Positions 4,848 through 13,140 of a stretch of DNA of 37,896 nt are shown here, piece by piece. Position 1 is the first letter of the stretch. Every line of letters starts with the position of its first letter. Below the pieces are notes generated by a model, which saw only the letters and a list, made by a program, of their open reading frames with translations, did not search any database and had not been told where the DNA came from. Source of the stretch: Sedimentimonas flavescens (GTDB lineage Bacteria; Pseudomonadota; Alphaproteobacteria; Rhodobacterales; Rhodobacteraceae); assembly GCF_019264375.1 (NCBI RefSeq), contig NZ_JAHVAI010000020.1, forward strand, positions 1 through 37,896, given 5' to 3'. Made by a program: the position numbers and the translations under genes.

Positions 4848-6488
<1,641 letters not shown>

Positions 6489-6674
6489 GATGTAAGTCCC
6501 TCCGCTCGACCCGGAACCCCTCCTGCTCCGAGTCAATGCGCAAAACTTACACACGGGCATATTGCCCAATTTTCCACGAAATGTATCCAATTGTGACATG
6601 CCGGGAATTTGGCTTGGGAAACCCGGCCCGCTGTCGCATCGTAGGATGTGCCAAGCCAACGCCCAACGGACGAC
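6489..6674. promoter_or_regulatory. Divergent promoter region between CoA ligase/liv operon and the kinase cassette
   Basis: This 186-bp gap separates divergent starts. It is more AT-rich than its surroundings in its middle (6541-6600) and holds a perfect inverted repeat GGGCA-TAT-TGCCC at 6555-6567. A second weaker dyad pairs GCCGGG (6600-6605) with CCCGGC (6622-6627). These are candidate binding sites for the response regulator at 8666-9382. I could not assign -35/-10 boxes with confidence. Confidence 0.45.
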
Positions 6675-8669
6675 ATGATGCGAGACGCGCCAAATGATCT
6701 CGGCCTTTCCGGCCTCGTCCTGGAGGGGCTTGGCAAGCTTGACCAGGGCATTACCATCTTCGATCAGCACCTGCGCATGATCGCGTGGAACGACCAGTTC
6801 CTTGAGATGTGCGACTACCCCGCGCATCTGGCCTTTCAGGGCGCGGATTTCGCCAGCTTCATCCATTACAATGCCGCGCGCGGTGAATATGGCCCCGGCG
6901 ATCCCGATGCGCTGGTGGCCGAGCGCGTCGAGAAGGCCCGCCGGTTCGAGCGCCACCAGTTCGAGCGCGCGCGCCCCAACGGACGCGTACTGGAGGTGAC
7001 CGGCTCGCCCCTGCCCGGTGGCGGCTTCGTGACGATCTACACCGACGTCACCGAGCGCCGGAACCAGGAGGCGCGACTGCAACAATTGGTCGAAGAGCGG
7101 ACCCATGCGCTGCAACTCAGCGAGGCGCGGCTCAAGCTGATCGCCGACGAGGTGCCCGCCGGCATCGCCCATATCGCCCGCGACATGAAGGTGCTGTACG
7201 CCAATCGTCGCTTTGCCGGGGCCTATGGGCGCACGCCCGAAGAGGTGATCGGCCTCTACGCCTCGGACATCCTGCATCCGCGCACCCTGAGCGAGTCTGC
7301 GCGGTTCTTCGAACAATCGCGGCGCGGTGCGCTTGTGGACTTCGAGATGCGCATCGAGCTGCCCGATGGTCGTTTCAAGGATATTCGCACCCTGTTGCGC
7401 CCCGAGACGCCCTCGTCGGGCGAGGTGATCGGGTTCTACCTTCTGTCGATCGACGTGACGCGCCGCAAGGCCACCATGTCGGCGCTGATGGGTTCGCAGA
7501 AGATGGATGCGCTTGGCCGTATGGCCAGCGGCATCTCGCATGATTTCAACAACCTGCTGACGATCATCCTGGGCAATCTCGTGCCGTTGGCCGAGGAATT
7601 GGGCGAGGGGGAACTGGTCGCGGATTACCTTGCCCCGGCGATCTCGGCGGCGCGGCGCGGCTCGGCGCTGACGCAGCGGCTGCTGACCCTGGCGCGGCGT
7701 GAGCAATTCGCCCCCGAACCCACCGATATTGTCGGCGCCGTGGAAGAGATCCACACGCTGCTGCGCTCATCCCTGCCGCGCAGCCTAGAGATCGTGCAGG
7801 AGTATCGCACCGATGTGCCCTCGGCCCTTGTCGACCGGGCGCAGCTGGAGATGGCGCTGCTGAACCTTGCGATCAACGCCAAGGATGCGACCGGGGGCGT
7901 CGGGCGGATCGAGATCGAGGTCGCGCCGTACGACCTGCCCCCCGAAGAGGCCGAACTGCTGCACCTGCCGGTGGGCCATTACGTGCGCATCCGCTTCTCG
8001 GATGACGGCTGCGGCATGTCGGCCGAACAGACCGAGCGGGTGTTCGAACCCTTCTACACCTCGAAAGCCGCAGGGGCAGGGTCGGGCCTTGGGCTATCGA
8101 TGGTCTATGGTTTCGTCAAACAGTCGAACGGGGCAATCTCGGTGGACAGCGCGCCGGGGCAAGGCGCGCGCTTCACCATCCTGTTGCCGGGGGTGGAACT
8201 GCGTGCGCCCGCCGAACCCGCCCCCACCGCAGAGGCCAGCCCCGAGGCGGGTGCGGCCGAGTTGCTTCTGCTGGTCGAGGATGACATGCAGGTGCGGCGC
8301 ACCATCCGCCGTCAGATCGCGGCGCTTGGCTATCCGCTGATCGAGGCCGAAACCGGGGACGAGGCATTGAACCTGCTGGATCATATCGAAGAGGTCGGCA
8401 TCGTGCTGACCGATATCGACATGCCAGGCAAGACCGACGGCTTCGCGCTGGCCCGGCATCTGGCCGCCACCCGCCCCGAAATCGCCGTCCTGCTGATGAG
8501 CGGTCAGGCCAGCCTGACCCAGCCCGATGATGGCGCGCTGTCCGATATTCCCGCATTACGCAAACCTTTTACCGATGCGCAGCTGACCGACGCGCTTTCC
8601 AAGGCGCGCCAGCGCGCGCGCCGCGATATTTCCCGTGGAATGTCCATTGCAGAGAGATCGAGCAAATGA
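6675..8669 (+). CDS. Soluble PAS-PAS hybrid histidine kinase with C-terminal receiver
   Basis: About 664 residues with no membrane segment, so a cytosolic kinase. Order: a PAS domain of the PAS_7 type (residues ~14-127, LDQGITIFDQHLRMIAWND), a short coiled coil (127-155), a second PAS (150-265), a HisKA with the phospho-accepting His289 (GISHDFNN), an ATPase domain (N-box Asn401, DDGCGMS, GSGLGLSMVYGF), and a receiver (VLTDIDMPG, Asp580, Lys630). The start is uncertain: ATG at 6675 or 6678 has only a weak GGACG site, and GTG at 6648 is a possible earlier start with GTAGGAT before it. Its stop overlaps the response-regulator start (ATGA). Because it lacks a periplasmic domain, ligand sensing must come from PAS binding or from the membrane proteins encoded downstream (inference). 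Confidence 0.9.
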   Translation: MMRDAPNDLGLSGLVLEGLGKLDQGITIFDQHLRMIAWNDQFLEMCDYPAHLAFQGADFASFIHYNAARGEYGPGDPDALVAERVEKARRFERHQFERARPNGRVLEVTGSPLPGGGFVTIYTDVTERRNQEARLQQLVEERTHALQLSEARLKLIADEVPAGIAHIARDMKVLYANRRFAGAYGRTPEEVIGLYASDILHPRTLSESARFFEQSRRGALVDFEMRIELPDGRFKDIRTLLRPETPSSGEVIGFYLLSIDVTRRKATMSALMGSQKMDALGRMASGISHDFNNLLTIILGNLVPLAEELGEGELVADYLAPAISAARRGSALTQRLLTLARREQFAPEPTDIVGAVEEIHTLLRSSLPRSLEIVQEYRTDVPSALVDRAQLEMALLNLAINAKDATGGVGRIEIEVAPYDLPPEEAELLHLPVGHYVRIRFSDDGCGMSAEQTERVFEPFYTSKAAGAGSGLGLSMVYGFVKQSNGAISVDSAPGQGARFTILLPGVELRAPAEPAPTAEASPEAGAAELLLLVEDDMQVRRTIRRQIAALGYPLIEAETGDEALNLLDHIEEVGIVLTDIDMPGKTDGFALARHLAATRPEIAVLLMSGQASLTQPDDGALSDIPALRKPFTDAQLTDALSKARQRARRDISRGMSIAERSSK

Positions 8670-9382
8670 GCACGCTTGTGTACCTTCTCGAGGATGATCT
8701 GGATATCAGCCGGCTGATCGAGCGCAGCCTCGTGCAGCAGGGCTTCACCATGCGCAGCTTCCGCCGCCTGGCCGAGTTCGAGCGCGAATTGCGCCGCCAG
8801 ACACCGGACCTTTGCCTGATCGACCTGTCACTGCCCGATGGCGACGGGCTGAGCCTGATCAACGGCAATACCCTGCCCGAGAACATGCCGCGCGTGATCG
8901 TGACCGGGCGCGGTTCGGTCACCGACAAGGTCGTCGGGCTTGAGATCGGCGCGGATGACTACATCGTCAAGCCCTTCGAGCCGCGCGAACTGGTAGCCCG
9001 CCTGCGCGCCGTCCTGCGCCGCAGCCGCAAGAGCCGCGAGGCCGCCGAGAGCGATCCACATTCGGTGGCCAGCTTTGGCGGCTGGACCGCGAACCTCAAG
9101 GCCTGCACCCTGACGCATACCGATGGCCACCAGGTCACGCTCAGCTCGTCGGAGAACAGCCTGCTTGAGGCTTTCCTGCGCGCACCGGGCCGTGTGCTGA
9201 GCCGCTCGAACCTGCTCGATGCGACGCAGGGGCGCTCGAACGAGCCCTTCGATCGCAGCATGGACGCCCGTGTCTGCCGCCTGCGTCGCAAGATCGCGCG
9301 CGCACCCGACGATGGCGAAGTCATCCGCACGGTCTATGGCGCGGGCTACATCTTTAGCGCCGAGGTGGACTGGAGCGACTGA
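8666..9382 (+). CDS. OmpR/PhoB-type response regulator
   Basis: A 238-residue two-domain regulator. The receiver domain (1-115) has the acidic pair Glu9/Asp10/Asp11 (LLEDDLD), phosphoacceptor Asp53 (CLIDLSLPDGDG), Thr80 and Lys102 (YIVKPFEP). A winged-helix trans_reg_C domain follows (130-235), ending RVCRLRRKIARAPDDGEVIRTVYGAGYIF, which is the recognition helix and wing. It is translationally coupled to the kinase by a 4-nt overlap, so they are almost certainly a pair. The presence of a second receiver on the kinase implies either a phosphorelay or feedback competition for phosphate. Likely targets are the divergent region 6489-6674 and the gap upstream of 9511 (inference). Confidence 0.93.
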   Translation: MSTLVYLLEDDLDISRLIERSLVQQGFTMRSFRRLAEFERELRRQTPDLCLIDLSLPDGDGLSLINGNTLPENMPRVIVTGRGSVTDKVVGLEIGADDYIVKPFEPRELVARLRAVLRRSRKSREAAESDPHSVASFGGWTANLKACTLTHTDGHQVTLSSSENSLLEAFLRAPGRVLSRSNLLDATQGRSNEPFDRSMDARVCRLRRKIARAPDDGEVIRTVYGAGYIFSAEVDWSD

Positions 9383-9401
9383 AGCCGCTCACGGTTTTTT
9401 T
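9373..9401 (+). terminator. Candidate intrinsic terminator after the response regulator
   Basis: GAGCG (9373-9377) pairs with CGCTC (9386-9390) around an 8-nt loop that includes the stop codon, followed 4 nt later by seven T residues (9395-9401). The stem is short, so termination would be partial. The following 110 bp to the next start could hold a separate promoter. Confidence 0.4.
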
Positions 9402-9510
9402 CGAAATCGCTGCGCGTTATGGCATGCTGTGTGTCGGAACCCGTAATCGACGCGAGAGATCACTCCGTGCCAGTCCCGACCCCAACCATCGCTAGCCGGA
9501 GCCGGGGCTA

Positions 9511-10242
9511 GTGGCGGTCTTCCTCCGGCTCTGGGCCGTTGCGGTGGCCACGCTGGCGCTGGTGCTGGCGCTGTTCGTCGGGCTTGCGATCCTGAACTTC
9601 AAGCAGATCCAGACCGACCTGCTCAGCGGGCGGCTGGCGGTTCTGGCCGAGATGACGGCAGAACCCTTCGAGGCGGCGGCGCGGATCGGGTTGCCGTTGG
9701 CCAGCGTCCGCAATTCCGCCGCACTCCTTGAACGCGCGCGCCAAAGTGACGATGCCATCGCGGGCGTCTATGTCATTGACGCAGACGGGGCGGTGATCCG
9801 CGCCACGGGTGGGGCAGGTCTGCAGATGCCCGCGCGCCGGGCCGAGGACACCCGCTGGAACTGGTCGGATGGCGCGCACCTGTTCAGTGCCGTGCAGATC
9901 GTCGGCGCGACGGGGCACCCCTTGGGAGCCGTGGTGGTCGAGATCGACCGGCGCGAAAGCACCATCCTCGTGCGCGCGATGGCGGCGGAACTGCTGACCT
10001 CGGCACTGGCGATCTGGGCAGTGATGTCGGCCCTGTCCGGCGCCGGGATCTGGCTATGGCTGCGCCCGCAGATCGCGGCCTTTAGCAGCGCCGAGGCACA
10101 GATCGAAGCGTTCGAACAGGATGTCTGGTCTGGCCGCGTGACGGCCGGAGTGGCAAGCACGAACGGTCTCGGCCAGGCGCTGAGGGCGGTCTTTGCGGGT
10201 TACCGGCAGGCCCTGCGCGACCGGGGTGACGAGCATGGCTGA
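9511..10242 (+). CDS. Two-helix periplasmic sensor-like membrane protein without output domain
   Basis: A 243-residue protein I do not recognise as a named family. It has a membrane helix at residues ~4-27 (LWAVAVATLALVLALFVGLAIL), a periplasmic region of about 125 residues with the hydrophobic strand pattern of a small Cache-like domain (DDAIAGVYVIDADGAVIRA, then GHPLGAVVVEID), a second helix at ~155-182 and a short cytoplasmic tail. The architecture is that of a histidine-kinase or chemoreceptor input module with the HAMP/kinase part missing. The start is GTG 9511: an in-frame TAG lies at 9493-9495, and GGAG precedes the GTG by about 9 nt. It overlaps the next gene by 8 nt. It probably senses or relays a periplasmic signal for the soluble kinase (inference). 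Confidence 0.7.
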   Translation: MAVFLRLWAVAVATLALVLALFVGLAILNFKQIQTDLLSGRLAVLAEMTAEPFEAAARIGLPLASVRNSAALLERARQSDDAIAGVYVIDADGAVIRATGGAGLQMPARRAEDTRWNWSDGAHLFSAVQIVGATGHPLGAVVVEIDRRESTILVRAMAAELLTSALAIWAVMSALSGAGIWLWLRPQIAAFSSAEAQIEAFEQDVWSGRVTAGVASTNGLGQALRAVFAGYRQALRDRGDEHG

Positions 10243-12151
10243 GGGGGCGGATATTACAGGAACGCAGCGGATCCGGGGCCGGATGCTTACCATGCTGGCG
10301 CTGCTGATCGCTGCAACCGTGCTTGCCTTCAGCTTCGTCACGCTGGTTTCATTCGACCGCGCCGTCGCCCCCGAACTGCACCAGCGCACCCGGCTAATCG
10401 GCGAGATCATCCGCTCCAAGGTCGAGCAAAGCGTCGCATCGGGCATCCCGATCGGCTCCATCGCCGGGCTTGAGGGCTATCTCGCAACCACCATCGCCCA
10501 ATTCCCCGAGGTTCAGCGCGTGTCGCTGGAAACCCGGCACGGCGAGACCATCGCCGAGGCCGCGAATGAGGTCAGCCTGACACTGCTGAGCCGCACCGGC
10601 CTTGACGTCCGGCTGGGTGTCGAGGCGACGGGTTTTGCCCTGCCGATCCTTGTACGCAACGACATGGTGGGTACCGTCCGGGTCGAAAGCTCGGCGCAGT
10701 TTGCCGAGACGAAGCTGCGCGGTGTACTGCTTGACGTATCGGTGCTGGCCATCGCGCTTCTGCTGATCGGGGTCGAGCTGGCGCTGGCGGTCGTGGCCGC
10801 ATCAATCTGGAAACCCCTGCGCCGTATTCAGGGGCTGCTCGCGCAGCAACAGGCCGGAGATTATTCGCGCGCCATCCGACCCACTGGCATCGCGCTGTTC
10901 CGCCGGCTTGCGCGGCGCCTCAATGCATTCTCGGCGGCGGTTACCCGTCAGGCGGCAGACGCGCTGCCCCGCCTGCGCTATGCCGAGATCATCGACATCC
11001 GCTTTGCCCTCTTCGTCTTCGTCGCGGGGACCGAGGTCTCGGCCTCGTTCCTGCCGGTCTTTGCGCGCGCCGAGGGGCGGCCCGAGTGGCTTTCGGCCAA
11101 TCTGGCAGCAGCCCTGCCGTTGCTGTTCTACCTGCTGGCGGTGATGACCCTGTCGCCCTTCGGCGGGCGCATGGCCGAGCGGTTCGGCGCGCGGCGGCTG
11201 TTCGTGGCCTCGGCGCTCCCCGCGGCGCTTTCACTTCTGGTCATGGCCGTGGCGCGCGATGTCTTCATGATCGCCGTGGCACGCGCGGGCGTCGGCATCA
11301 GCTACGCGCTGGCCTCGATCGCCTGTCAGGAATATGCGCTGCGCGCCGAGCGCGGGGCCGCGCTGTCGCGCACCTCGGGCACCTTCATCGCGATGATCTT
11401 CGGCGGAACCTTCTGCGGCTCGGTTCTGGGCGGGGTCATGGCGCAGCATTTCGGCTACGGCTTCGCCCTGACGGTCGGTGCCGCGCTTGTCCTGGGCGCG
11501 GCGATGATGGGCCAGCTAACCATGGCGTCCGACACCCCGGCCGACACCGCCTCGGTGGCAACGGCGCCGGGAAGACGAGAACCTCTGGCAACTCTGCGCT
11601 ACGCCGCGCTGACAGTTGGCATCGCGATCCCCCTCAACCTCGTGACGGCGGTCTTTGTATGGTTTCTGGCGCCGATGCAGCTTGCGGCGCTTGGGGCGGA
11701 CACCTCGGAAACCGCACGGGTCGTCATGCTCTACTACCTCGCGCAGATCCTGCTGGGCGGCACCCTGAGCGGCCTGGCACGCGGCCGATGGGCCGCCGTG
11801 ACGCTTGGGGCGATGGTCACTGCCGCAGCGCTTGTCGCGCTGTCGCGCGATATGGGGTTCGTGACCATGATCCTTGCGACCGCTGGCATCGGGATCGGCC
11901 ACGCGCTGATCCGCGGGCCGCTTCTGGCCCTGATCACCGAAATCGCGCAGGCGGCGGGCCTGAGCCTTTCCGGCCTGCGCATCGCCGAGCGCCTCGGCGC
12001 GCTGGCAGGGCTGGCGCTGACAACGCTGGCCATGAGAACACTGCCCACGGGATCGATTTTGGAAATGCTTGCACTGTTGGTAGTCTTGGGAGTCGTGGGC
12101 GCGGGCGGCATCGCATGGGCTGGCCGCGAGAAGGGAGAGCGCAGGCCATGA
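10235..12151 (+). CDS. Sensor-domain/HAMP-like/MFS transporter fusion
   Basis: A 638-residue fusion. Residues ~17-40 form a helix, 41-165 a periplasmic sensor-like domain (ending MVGTVRVESSAQFAETKL), 166-190 a second helix, and 191-240 a HAMP-like cytoplasmic stretch (IWKPLRRIQGLLAQQQAGDYS). From ~250 to the end comes a 12-helix major facilitator domain with the loop motif GGRMAERFGARRLFVAS and the mid-protein PGRREPLATLRYA linker. The start ATG at 10235 overlaps the upstream stop by 8 nt, and the stop overlaps the downstream start (ATGA). Joining a chemoreceptor-style input to an MFS permease suggests a transporter that also signals (a transceptor), or transport gated by the sensor. The MFS substrate cannot be read from the sequence. 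The upstream small protein at 9511 looks like a paralogue of its N-terminal part. Confidence 0.85.
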   Translation: MAEGADITGTQRIRGRMLTMLALLIAATVLAFSFVTLVSFDRAVAPELHQRTRLIGEIIRSKVEQSVASGIPIGSIAGLEGYLATTIAQFPEVQRVSLETRHGETIAEAANEVSLTLLSRTGLDVRLGVEATGFALPILVRNDMVGTVRVESSAQFAETKLRGVLLDVSVLAIALLLIGVELALAVVAASIWKPLRRIQGLLAQQQAGDYSRAIRPTGIALFRRLARRLNAFSAAVTRQAADALPRLRYAEIIDIRFALFVFVAGTEVSASFLPVFARAEGRPEWLSANLAAALPLLFYLLAVMTLSPFGGRMAERFGARRLFVASALPAALSLLVMAVARDVFMIAVARAGVGISYALASIACQEYALRAERGAALSRTSGTFIAMIFGGTFCGSVLGGVMAQHFGYGFALTVGAALVLGAAMMGQLTMASDTPADTASVATAPGRREPLATLRYAALTVGIAIPLNLVTAVFVWFLAPMQLAALGADTSETARVVMLYYLAQILLGGTLSGLARGRWAAVTLGAMVTAAALVALSRDMGFVTMILATAGIGIGHALIRGPLLALITEIAQAAGLSLSGLRIAERLGALAGLALTTLAMRTLPTGSILEMLALLVVLGVVGAGGIAWAGREKGERRP

Positions 12152-13140
12152 GATCGAAGATTGCCACCGCCGCACTGGCTGTCGCTCTGGGGGTCGGGAC
12201 GGCGACTGCCGAGACCGCGAATATCATGATCGTGACATGGCGTGGCTGCGAAGAGGCTTGCGCGGGCTTTCAGGATTACCTCGCAGCCAGCGGGCACGAC
12301 GTCACCTTCACCCTGCGCGACGCCGCACAGGACAAGACCCGCCTGCCCGGCTTCCTCGACGAGGCGCGCCAGCGCGGGACCGGGTTGATCCTGACCTGGG
12401 GCACCAGCGCCACCATCGGCATCGCCGGAACGCTGGCCGATCTGGAGGCGCCGCAGTTCAACCACACGATCCCGCAGATCTTCATGATCGTGGCCGACCC
12501 GGTCGGCGCGGGCGTCGTGCAATCGCTTGAGGAGACCGGCCGTGCGAATATCACTGGCACCTACAACCGGATGCCCGAGACCGTCACCCTCCAGACCATC
12601 CGCAGCTACATGCCCGCCTTCGCCCATCTGGGCCTTCTGTTCAACGCGGATGAAAAAAACTCGGTCGTGAAGCGCGACGAGATGGCCGCGCTTGCCGCCG
12701 AACGGGGGATCGCCTTCACCGCCGTCGAACTGCCGCTTGGCGAGGATGGACACCCCCGCGCGCAGGATATCGAGGCCGGCATGGCCGCCCTGAAAGCGGC
12801 TGGCGCCGAGTTTGTCTATGTCGGAAGCTCGTCCTTTCTACAGGCCGAAAGCGAGGCGCTCCACGCGGCGGCCCTTGCCACGAAGATGCCCGTCATCAGC
12901 CCCTATGAGGATATGGTGCGCAAGGGCCACGCGCTGATCTCGGTCGCGGCGCGTTATGGCGACGTGGGCAGGCTTGCAGGCCAACTGTCCGAGCAGATCC
13001 TGTTTGAGGGCGCCCTGCCCGGCAGCCTGCCCGTGGCGCGGATGCAGGATTTTGCCATCACCATCGACACGAACATGGCGCGCAAGATCGGTGTCTACCC
13101 ACCGCTGGAACTGCTCGACATCGCTGAAACGGTCGAGTGA
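12148..13140 (+). CDS. ABC_sub_bind (TrpX-like) periplasmic binding protein, orphan
   Basis: A 330-residue secreted protein: signal peptide (MRSKIATAALAVALGVGTATA) then a two-lobed periplasmic-binding fold of the ABC_sub_bind family. The family pattern shows at IMIVTWRGCEEACAGFQDYL, the LILTWGTSATIG segment, PQIFMIVADPVGAGVVQSL, ANITGTYNRMPETVTLQ and the C-terminal MARKIGVYPPLELLDIAE. Two cysteines at the N-terminus (CEEAC) could form a disulfide. The start at 12148 overlaps the MFS stop. Family members such as TrpX normally sit beside a permease and an ATPase. None is present here, so it probably acts as a periplasmic ligand receptor for the two sensor-like membrane proteins (inference). It ends 4 bp from the convergent aminotransferase gene. 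Confidence 0.85.
   Translation: MRSKIATAALAVALGVGTATAETANIMIVTWRGCEEACAGFQDYLAASGHDVTFTLRDAAQDKTRLPGFLDEARQRGTGLILTWGTSATIGIAGTLADLEAPQFNHTIPQIFMIVADPVGAGVVQSLEETGRANITGTYNRMPETVTLQTIRSYMPAFAHLGLLFNADEKNSVVKRDEMAALAAERGIAFTAVELPLGEDGHPRAQDIEAGMAALKAAGAEFVYVGSSSFLQAESEALHAAALATKMPVISPYEDMVRKGHALISVAARYGDVGRLAGQLSEQILFEGALPGSLPVARMQDFAITIDTNMARKIGVYPPLELLDIAETVE

Follow-up and report, generated by a model that had tools for sequence, protein, structure and literature searches.

A sensor, MFS and binding-protein triad in Sedimentimonas flavescens is probably a module apart from the neighbouring kinase/regulator pair

Five closely spaced genes on one strand of a Sedimentimonas flavescens contig raise the question of whether they encode a single signalling and transport system. 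They occupy positions 6,675 to 13,140 of NZ_JAHVAI010000020.1 (C13 among the 62 contigs of a 3.38-Mb genome), the whole of which, 37,896 nucleotides, was analysed and is referred to here as the window. An initial annotation of this DNA had described a hybrid kinase, its response regulator, a kinase-less sensor, a sensor fused to a major facilitator superfamily (MFS) transporter and a binding protein, and had read them as one five-gene system. All five genes are present at the places given and their contents are borne out by domain searches; the overlaps claimed can likewise be read from the sequence (4 bp between kinase and regulator, 8 bp between S1 and S2-MFS, 4 bp between S2-MFS and the binding protein, SBP). 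Our analysis nevertheless favors a different grouping: the five genes are probably two adjacent, independent modules, an ordinary kinase/regulator pair and a self-contained triad of S1, S2-MFS and SBP. The features concerned are as follows.

4848..6488, minus strand: CoA ligase (AMP-binding), first gene of a divergent CoA-ligase/liv operon
6675..8669, plus strand: hybrid PAS histidine kinase (PAS_7, PAS_4, HisKA, HATPase_c, Response_reg), probably in a module apart from the triad
8666..9382, plus strand: OmpR-type response regulator, paired with the kinase in that separate module
9373..9390, plus strand: terminator-like hairpin followed by a T run, at the end of the regulator gene
9511..10242, plus strand: S1, a sensor-only protein of 243 aa with two transmembrane (TM) helices flanking a single Cache/PDC-like periplasmic domain
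10235..12151, plus strand: S2-MFS, an S1-like sensor (residues ~10-206), a linker and a 12-helix MFS part (~253-633)
12148..13140, plus strand: SBP, a secreted ABC_sub_bind-family binding protein of 330 aa, signal peptide assigned by eye

Gene order in other genomes bears directly on this grouping. Orthologues of the kinase (E 1e-80) occur in 7 of 148 genomes of the same family, our own counted. Across six loci fetched from other genomes (L087-L092) the regulator adjoins the kinase in every case, and none of the triad genes was found in any of the six. Apart from the window there are 45 triad loci; a search of these for the pair (tblastn, 1e-5) found close relatives in L094 only, and distantly related kinase-type genes in L063 and L108. 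The pair could have been missed in six triad loci (L059, L062, L075, L097, L100 and L101), because less than 1.4 kb of DNA lies upstream of S1 there. L094 belongs to Sinirhodobacter sp. WL0062, the nearest named relative found, whose S2-MFS is 87% identical to that of the window. Its kinase pair sits beside a CoA ligase and livG, and S1 starts ~3.9 kb past the regulator, the spacer holding methyltransferase-like and glycosyltransferase genes (opposite strand) and a PMT_2-family gene. Within the window, regulator and S1 are 128 bp apart, and one terminator-like site was found between them where 0.2 would be expected in shuffled sequence.

A single system, in which SBP and the membrane sensors would feed the soluble kinase and regulator, could draw on the close packing of the genes on one strand and on the presence of both pair and triad in L094. 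Yet the genes separating the two in L094, the pair without a triad in L087-L092, the lack of close pair relatives in the other 44 triad loci (six of them with little upstream DNA) and the terminator-like site all speak against it, and we consider it very improbable; the five-gene cassette was rejected on synteny. The initial annotation had itself proposed that co-occurrence of the five families across genomes be checked and that its absence beyond close relatives would refute the idea, and among the loci compared the pair and the triad were seen together only in the window and its closest relative, L094. What endures is its view of the last three genes: the binding protein, split sensor and MFS form a conserved unit, and one linked to signalling genes in many other genomes.

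The first module (6675-9382) is a hybrid two-component system, consisting of a HisKA-HATPase_c-REC kinase and an OmpR-type regulator. No membrane helix was seen by eye in the kinase, for which an alternative GTG start at 6648 is possible. In L087, L089 and L090 the kinase is divergent to a CoA ligase and a full liv set, an arrangement like that of the window; L088 has a divergent CoA ligase at ~2.6 kb, while in L091 and L092 liv-type genes are more distant and no CoA ligase was found at 1e-20. Judged from sequence, the pair most likely encodes a cytosolic kinase and a regulator that would control the divergent CoA-ligase/liv operon. The earlier suggestion that this operon is the target of the five genes is supported, by synteny, for the pair only; the liv operon, next upstream, encodes a binding protein of its own.

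The conservation of the triad was assessed in 46 loci. These were recruited through S2-MFS, whose presence is therefore given by construction, so that S1 and SBP provide the test. The order S1, S2-MFS, SBP is found in 43 of the 46, and the other three (L067, L072, L074) have all three genes in rearranged form. In a first set of 31 (the window, L094-L101, L022-L026 and L059-L075), 28 keep S1, S2-MFS and SBP on one strand; SBP comes first in L067, and in L072 and L074 it is divergent and ~1.1 kb from S1. In the 15 further loci (L108-L122) SBP directly follows S2-MFS throughout, S1 being a separate gene in five (L108, L109, L111, L114, L115) and fused in ten. A more elaborate fusion occurs in L026:6458-9892, a 1144-aa frame in which an RsbW-like HATPase_c_2 domain precedes both sensors and the MFS, adjoining STAS, RsbW and SpoIIE genes. 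The loci are not independent, nine type VI secretion system (T6SS)-linked ones being close kin. The count includes L075, in which the contig stops within SBP. Left out were three loci truncated at contig ends (L027, L028, L042), a contig-edge fragment (G969), two loci with no clear triad (L076, L077), and L020 and L021, which duplicate L098 and L101. In a subset of 35 less similar loci, the distances between MFS parts are correlated with those between SBPs (r 0.655, 0 of 5000 permutations), which fits genes travelling together.

Several variants were seen alongside these. In L119:7322-10884, and also in L110, L112, L116-L118 and L120-L122, S1, S2 and MFS form one protein of ~856-873 aa directly before SBP, inside T6SS clusters. 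The divergent sensor-MFS genes of L076:8153-10645 and L077:6949-9396 encode ~815-830 aa and have PP2C genes in the same stretch. In one genome, G089 (L021, L027, L028), sensor-MFS genes or parts of them are spread over three contigs, and in L028 two sensors share one frame.

The spread of the family was gauged by profile searches. With model A1, 45 of 385 genomes of the class match at 1e-20; 18 of these matches, our own included, span nearly the whole sensor-MFS length, the remainder being partial or MFS only. Across the phylum 9 of 398 genomes match at 1e-60, again with our own, and five of the nine lie outside the class. Matches were found in 13 of 121 genomes of family f203 and in 1 of 115 genomes of the order of G665. 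A contig scan with a three-row alignment gave eight loci, its reach being limited to close relatives, and no relative of the MFS protein turned up in viral contigs.

What, then, do the triad proteins look like? S1 has no Pfam or NCBIfam family above cut-off and no output domain. Its AlphaFold2 (AF2) model (pLDDT 84) matches the periplasmic PDC/Cache-type domains of WalK, KinD and CitA, with five chains at E <=1e-3. The AF2 layout, a long helix, a helix, a beta sheet and a long helix, is common to S1 and the front of S2-MFS. Compared directly, the two sensor profiles match with E 3.4e-4, though at low probability; this pairwise test is the cleaner one, profiles built over three recruitment rounds matching partly by construction. 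No kinase domain was found above cut-off in S1 or S2-MFS. Nor does Pfam find a HAMP domain in the window S2-MFS, where a HAMP-like part had been proposed; a related sensor in L072 has one following the second helix (45 bits, residues 198-248). Residue conservation was counted across 50 loci: E181, which lies in the second TM helix of S2, is present in 49 of them, D167 in 46, R582 in all 50, and E585 and R586 in 48 each; it is a guess that E181 contacts the conserved arginines.

The only family above cut-off in S2-MFS is MFS_1, at residues 257-592. In the AF2 model (pLDDT 76.6) the MFS part has 12 helices, and its fold matches NorA, VMAT2 and MdfA. SBP scores 87 bits with ABC_sub_bind and 93 bits with the NCBIfam model TrpX; being under the equivalog cut-off of 390 it is TrpX-like, as first described, and not TrpX. 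It is the one ABC_sub_bind gene of the genome, and, again as first described, no ABC permease or ATPase lies inside the triad. A search of the genome with PF06541 gave no match but carries no weight, this being presumably the wrong permease family, and an ABC partner may exist elsewhere in the genome. SBPs of the window, L095, L096, L097, L099 and L100 have in common a WRGCEEAC motif close to the mature N-terminus, and its cysteine pair might form a disulfide.

It is the company kept by the triad in relatives that points to signalling. A set of 23 triad genomes, which does not include G215, G222, G154 and G497, gave 55 SpoIIE matches; 13 of the 23 have a SpoIIE/PP2C gene no more than 10 kb from the triad, against ~0.25 expected, a figure reckoned from the listed genome sizes. 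RsbW-like and STAS genes are also frequent neighbors. Second sensor pairs of a similar kind have a different output. In L072:6634-10293 such a pair, with HAMP, includes an S2-like protein that ends in SpoIIE/PP2C instead of an MFS; the second pair of L074:14215-17873 resembles it by profile and has a PP2C end in place of the MFS; and that of L065:11314-16163 has an MFS that scores weakly (34.2 bits) and stands before a dCache-HAMP-Guanylate_cyc protein, an adenylate cyclase. We count these like pairs, with PP2C or beside a cyclase as output, in favor of a signalling role for the triad.

A second association is with T6SS clusters. TssC, Hcp or VgrG lies within the fetched stretch of 13 of 14 loci outside the class, mostly from one family, and two cases, L022 and L066, fall inside the class. 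L113 is found with PP2C, RsbW and STAS, and L111, a class member, has neither kind of company. T6SS-linked copies stand at three separate places in the MFS tree, though they may still go back to a single origin. By Pfam, L119 reads TssF, TssG, ClpV, S1-S2-MFS, SBP, an SBP_bac_3-like gene, FHA, TssK, TssL and TssM. The relevant rows of a Vibrio T6SS table (PMC10385127) give tssH, an MFS gene of 2568 bp, an ABC protein, a transporter protein and FHA, the same order as L119, and in a listing of the V. fluvialis cluster (PMC5371669) one end is occupied by an MFS transporter together with an ABC-type periplasmic component. In these listings the genes bear the names 'MFS transporter' and 'ABC transporter protein', with no function, sensor domain or module described.

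Enzyme genes form a third kind of neighbor. One GNAT family is present in 11 of 26 triad genomes, as a single copy each and always beside the triad (L023, L024, L026, L060, L064, L065, L067, L070, L073, L111, L113). Eight of the 11 genomes supplied the profile, so the weight of this observation lies in the lack of other copies and in the three further matches. Alanine racemase is found with L024 and L070 (Pfam) and L060 (profile), and ATP-grasp with L064 and L065, a hint that some triads have amino-acid-type chemistry in their vicinity.

The window copy itself keeps none of this company. Neither PP2C nor T6SS genes of the query set lie near the triads of its clade (L094-L101), and no PP2C, RsbW-like or STAS genes of the RsbU/V/W partner-switching type were seen beside the module in the window. 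The genome has no VipB, the sheath protein (VipB/TssC) expected of a T6SS cluster, and no triad-type GNAT; its one SpoIIE is on another contig. The window triad is thus an orphan, acting alone or via partners elsewhere.

Our best reading of the triad is a paired receptor that is supplied by the binding protein and coupled to an MFS resembling exporters. The secreted SBP would capture a small ligand, for which the family suggests an amino-acid-like or aromatic compound, and once loaded would dock on S1 and S2, whose Cache-like domains would together make up the paired receptor. The resulting change may then run through the second TM helix of S2 and the linker into the fused DHA1-like MFS, such that transport would be gated or the MFS would report its own state; the ligand, docking, gating and direction of transport are all inferred. 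Several points weigh against this proposal. The probability of the S1/S2 profile match is low (37.6%), 10 of the 23 genomes have no nearby SpoIIE, and the MFS/SBP distance correlation cannot separate coevolution from common descent. The coupling of the MFS to signalling is deduced from its neighbors, which for the window copy leaves signalling unsupported, since its clade lacks PP2C or T6SS neighbors of the query set; the SBP/S1/S2 complex, its ligand and transport are predictions.

Two other explanations deal with the same facts. The triad could be only a transporter, an SBP-dependent MFS importer in which the Cache-like domains serve as docking sites and no signalling takes place. The orphan triads without adjoining regulators in L095, L096, L098 and L099, each with ~9 kb of upstream DNA, are what this would lead one to expect, as is the location of several window-clade loci near other uptake genes; set against them are an MFS fold closest to exporters, the ties of relatives to PP2C, cyclase or T6SS, and the like sensor pairs that carry PP2C where the MFS would stand. 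We regard this explanation as possible, though unlikely. The exporter-like fold is instead accommodated if the MFS exports a small amino-acid-derived molecule that SBP and the sensor pair then sense outside, a self-made signal loop to which the GNAT, alanine racemase and ATP-grasp genes could contribute. None of these enzymes adjoins the window copy, whose genome lacks such a GNAT, and 15 of the 26 triad genomes are without it while most of the rest built the profile, which leaves the loop quite improbable. The receptor-coupled MFS, set apart from the kinase pair, is the account that we hold to be probable overall. It is tempting to go further and envisage a new class of binding-protein-dependent membrane machine, in which an exporter-type MFS incorporates a paired Cache-like receptor. 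Such a machine would both export an amino-acid-derived signal and sense it, and its relatives would set PP2C partner switches, a cyclase or T6SS activity; we offer this broader notion as speculation that is rather unlikely to hold in full.

The triad was compared with several known systems. TRAP (tripartite ATP-independent periplasmic, DctPQM) and TTT (tripartite tricarboxylate, TctABC) transporters encode a secreted binding protein together with a small and a large membrane protein and no ATPase. That composition, and the mode of working that the importer explanation borrows, resembles the triad, but the membrane proteins of the latter are MFS_1 and Cache-like sensors and its SBP is ABC_sub_bind; no TRAP (DctQ/DctM) or TTT (TctA/TctB) membrane protein was found above cut-off in S1 or S2-MFS. 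In TorT/TorS and LuxP/LuxQ a periplasmic binding protein is coupled to a membrane sensor kinase. A binding protein on a membrane sensor is also expected of the triad, whereas S1 and S2 are kinase-less and S2 ends in an MFS. UhpC, which works with UhpB, is an MFS protein in a receptor role that lacks both a binding protein and a Cache-like domain at its front; the triad shares the idea of such a role and lacks a UhpB-type kinase. Transporters fused to signalling parts are known from the SLC5/STAC histidine kinases CrbS, CbrA and RpuS, for which the account in PMC9100948, in the sections consulted, mentions no binding protein; both are transporter-signalling fusions, but the triad has MFS_1 only and no SLC5 fold, STAC or kinase. 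No description of such an S1/S2-MFS/SBP module was found in the literature searched, and the triad is apparently undescribed.

Separating the two modules corrects a misleading five-gene grouping in the window. If our reading of the triad is true, binding-protein-dependent receptors and transporters would gain a further type, one based on an MFS, and the triad would be a testable input candidate for those T6SS clusters and PP2C partner switches in which it occurs. Because relatives differ in their output (MFS, PP2C or cyclase), the signalling logic of this family can be tested directly.

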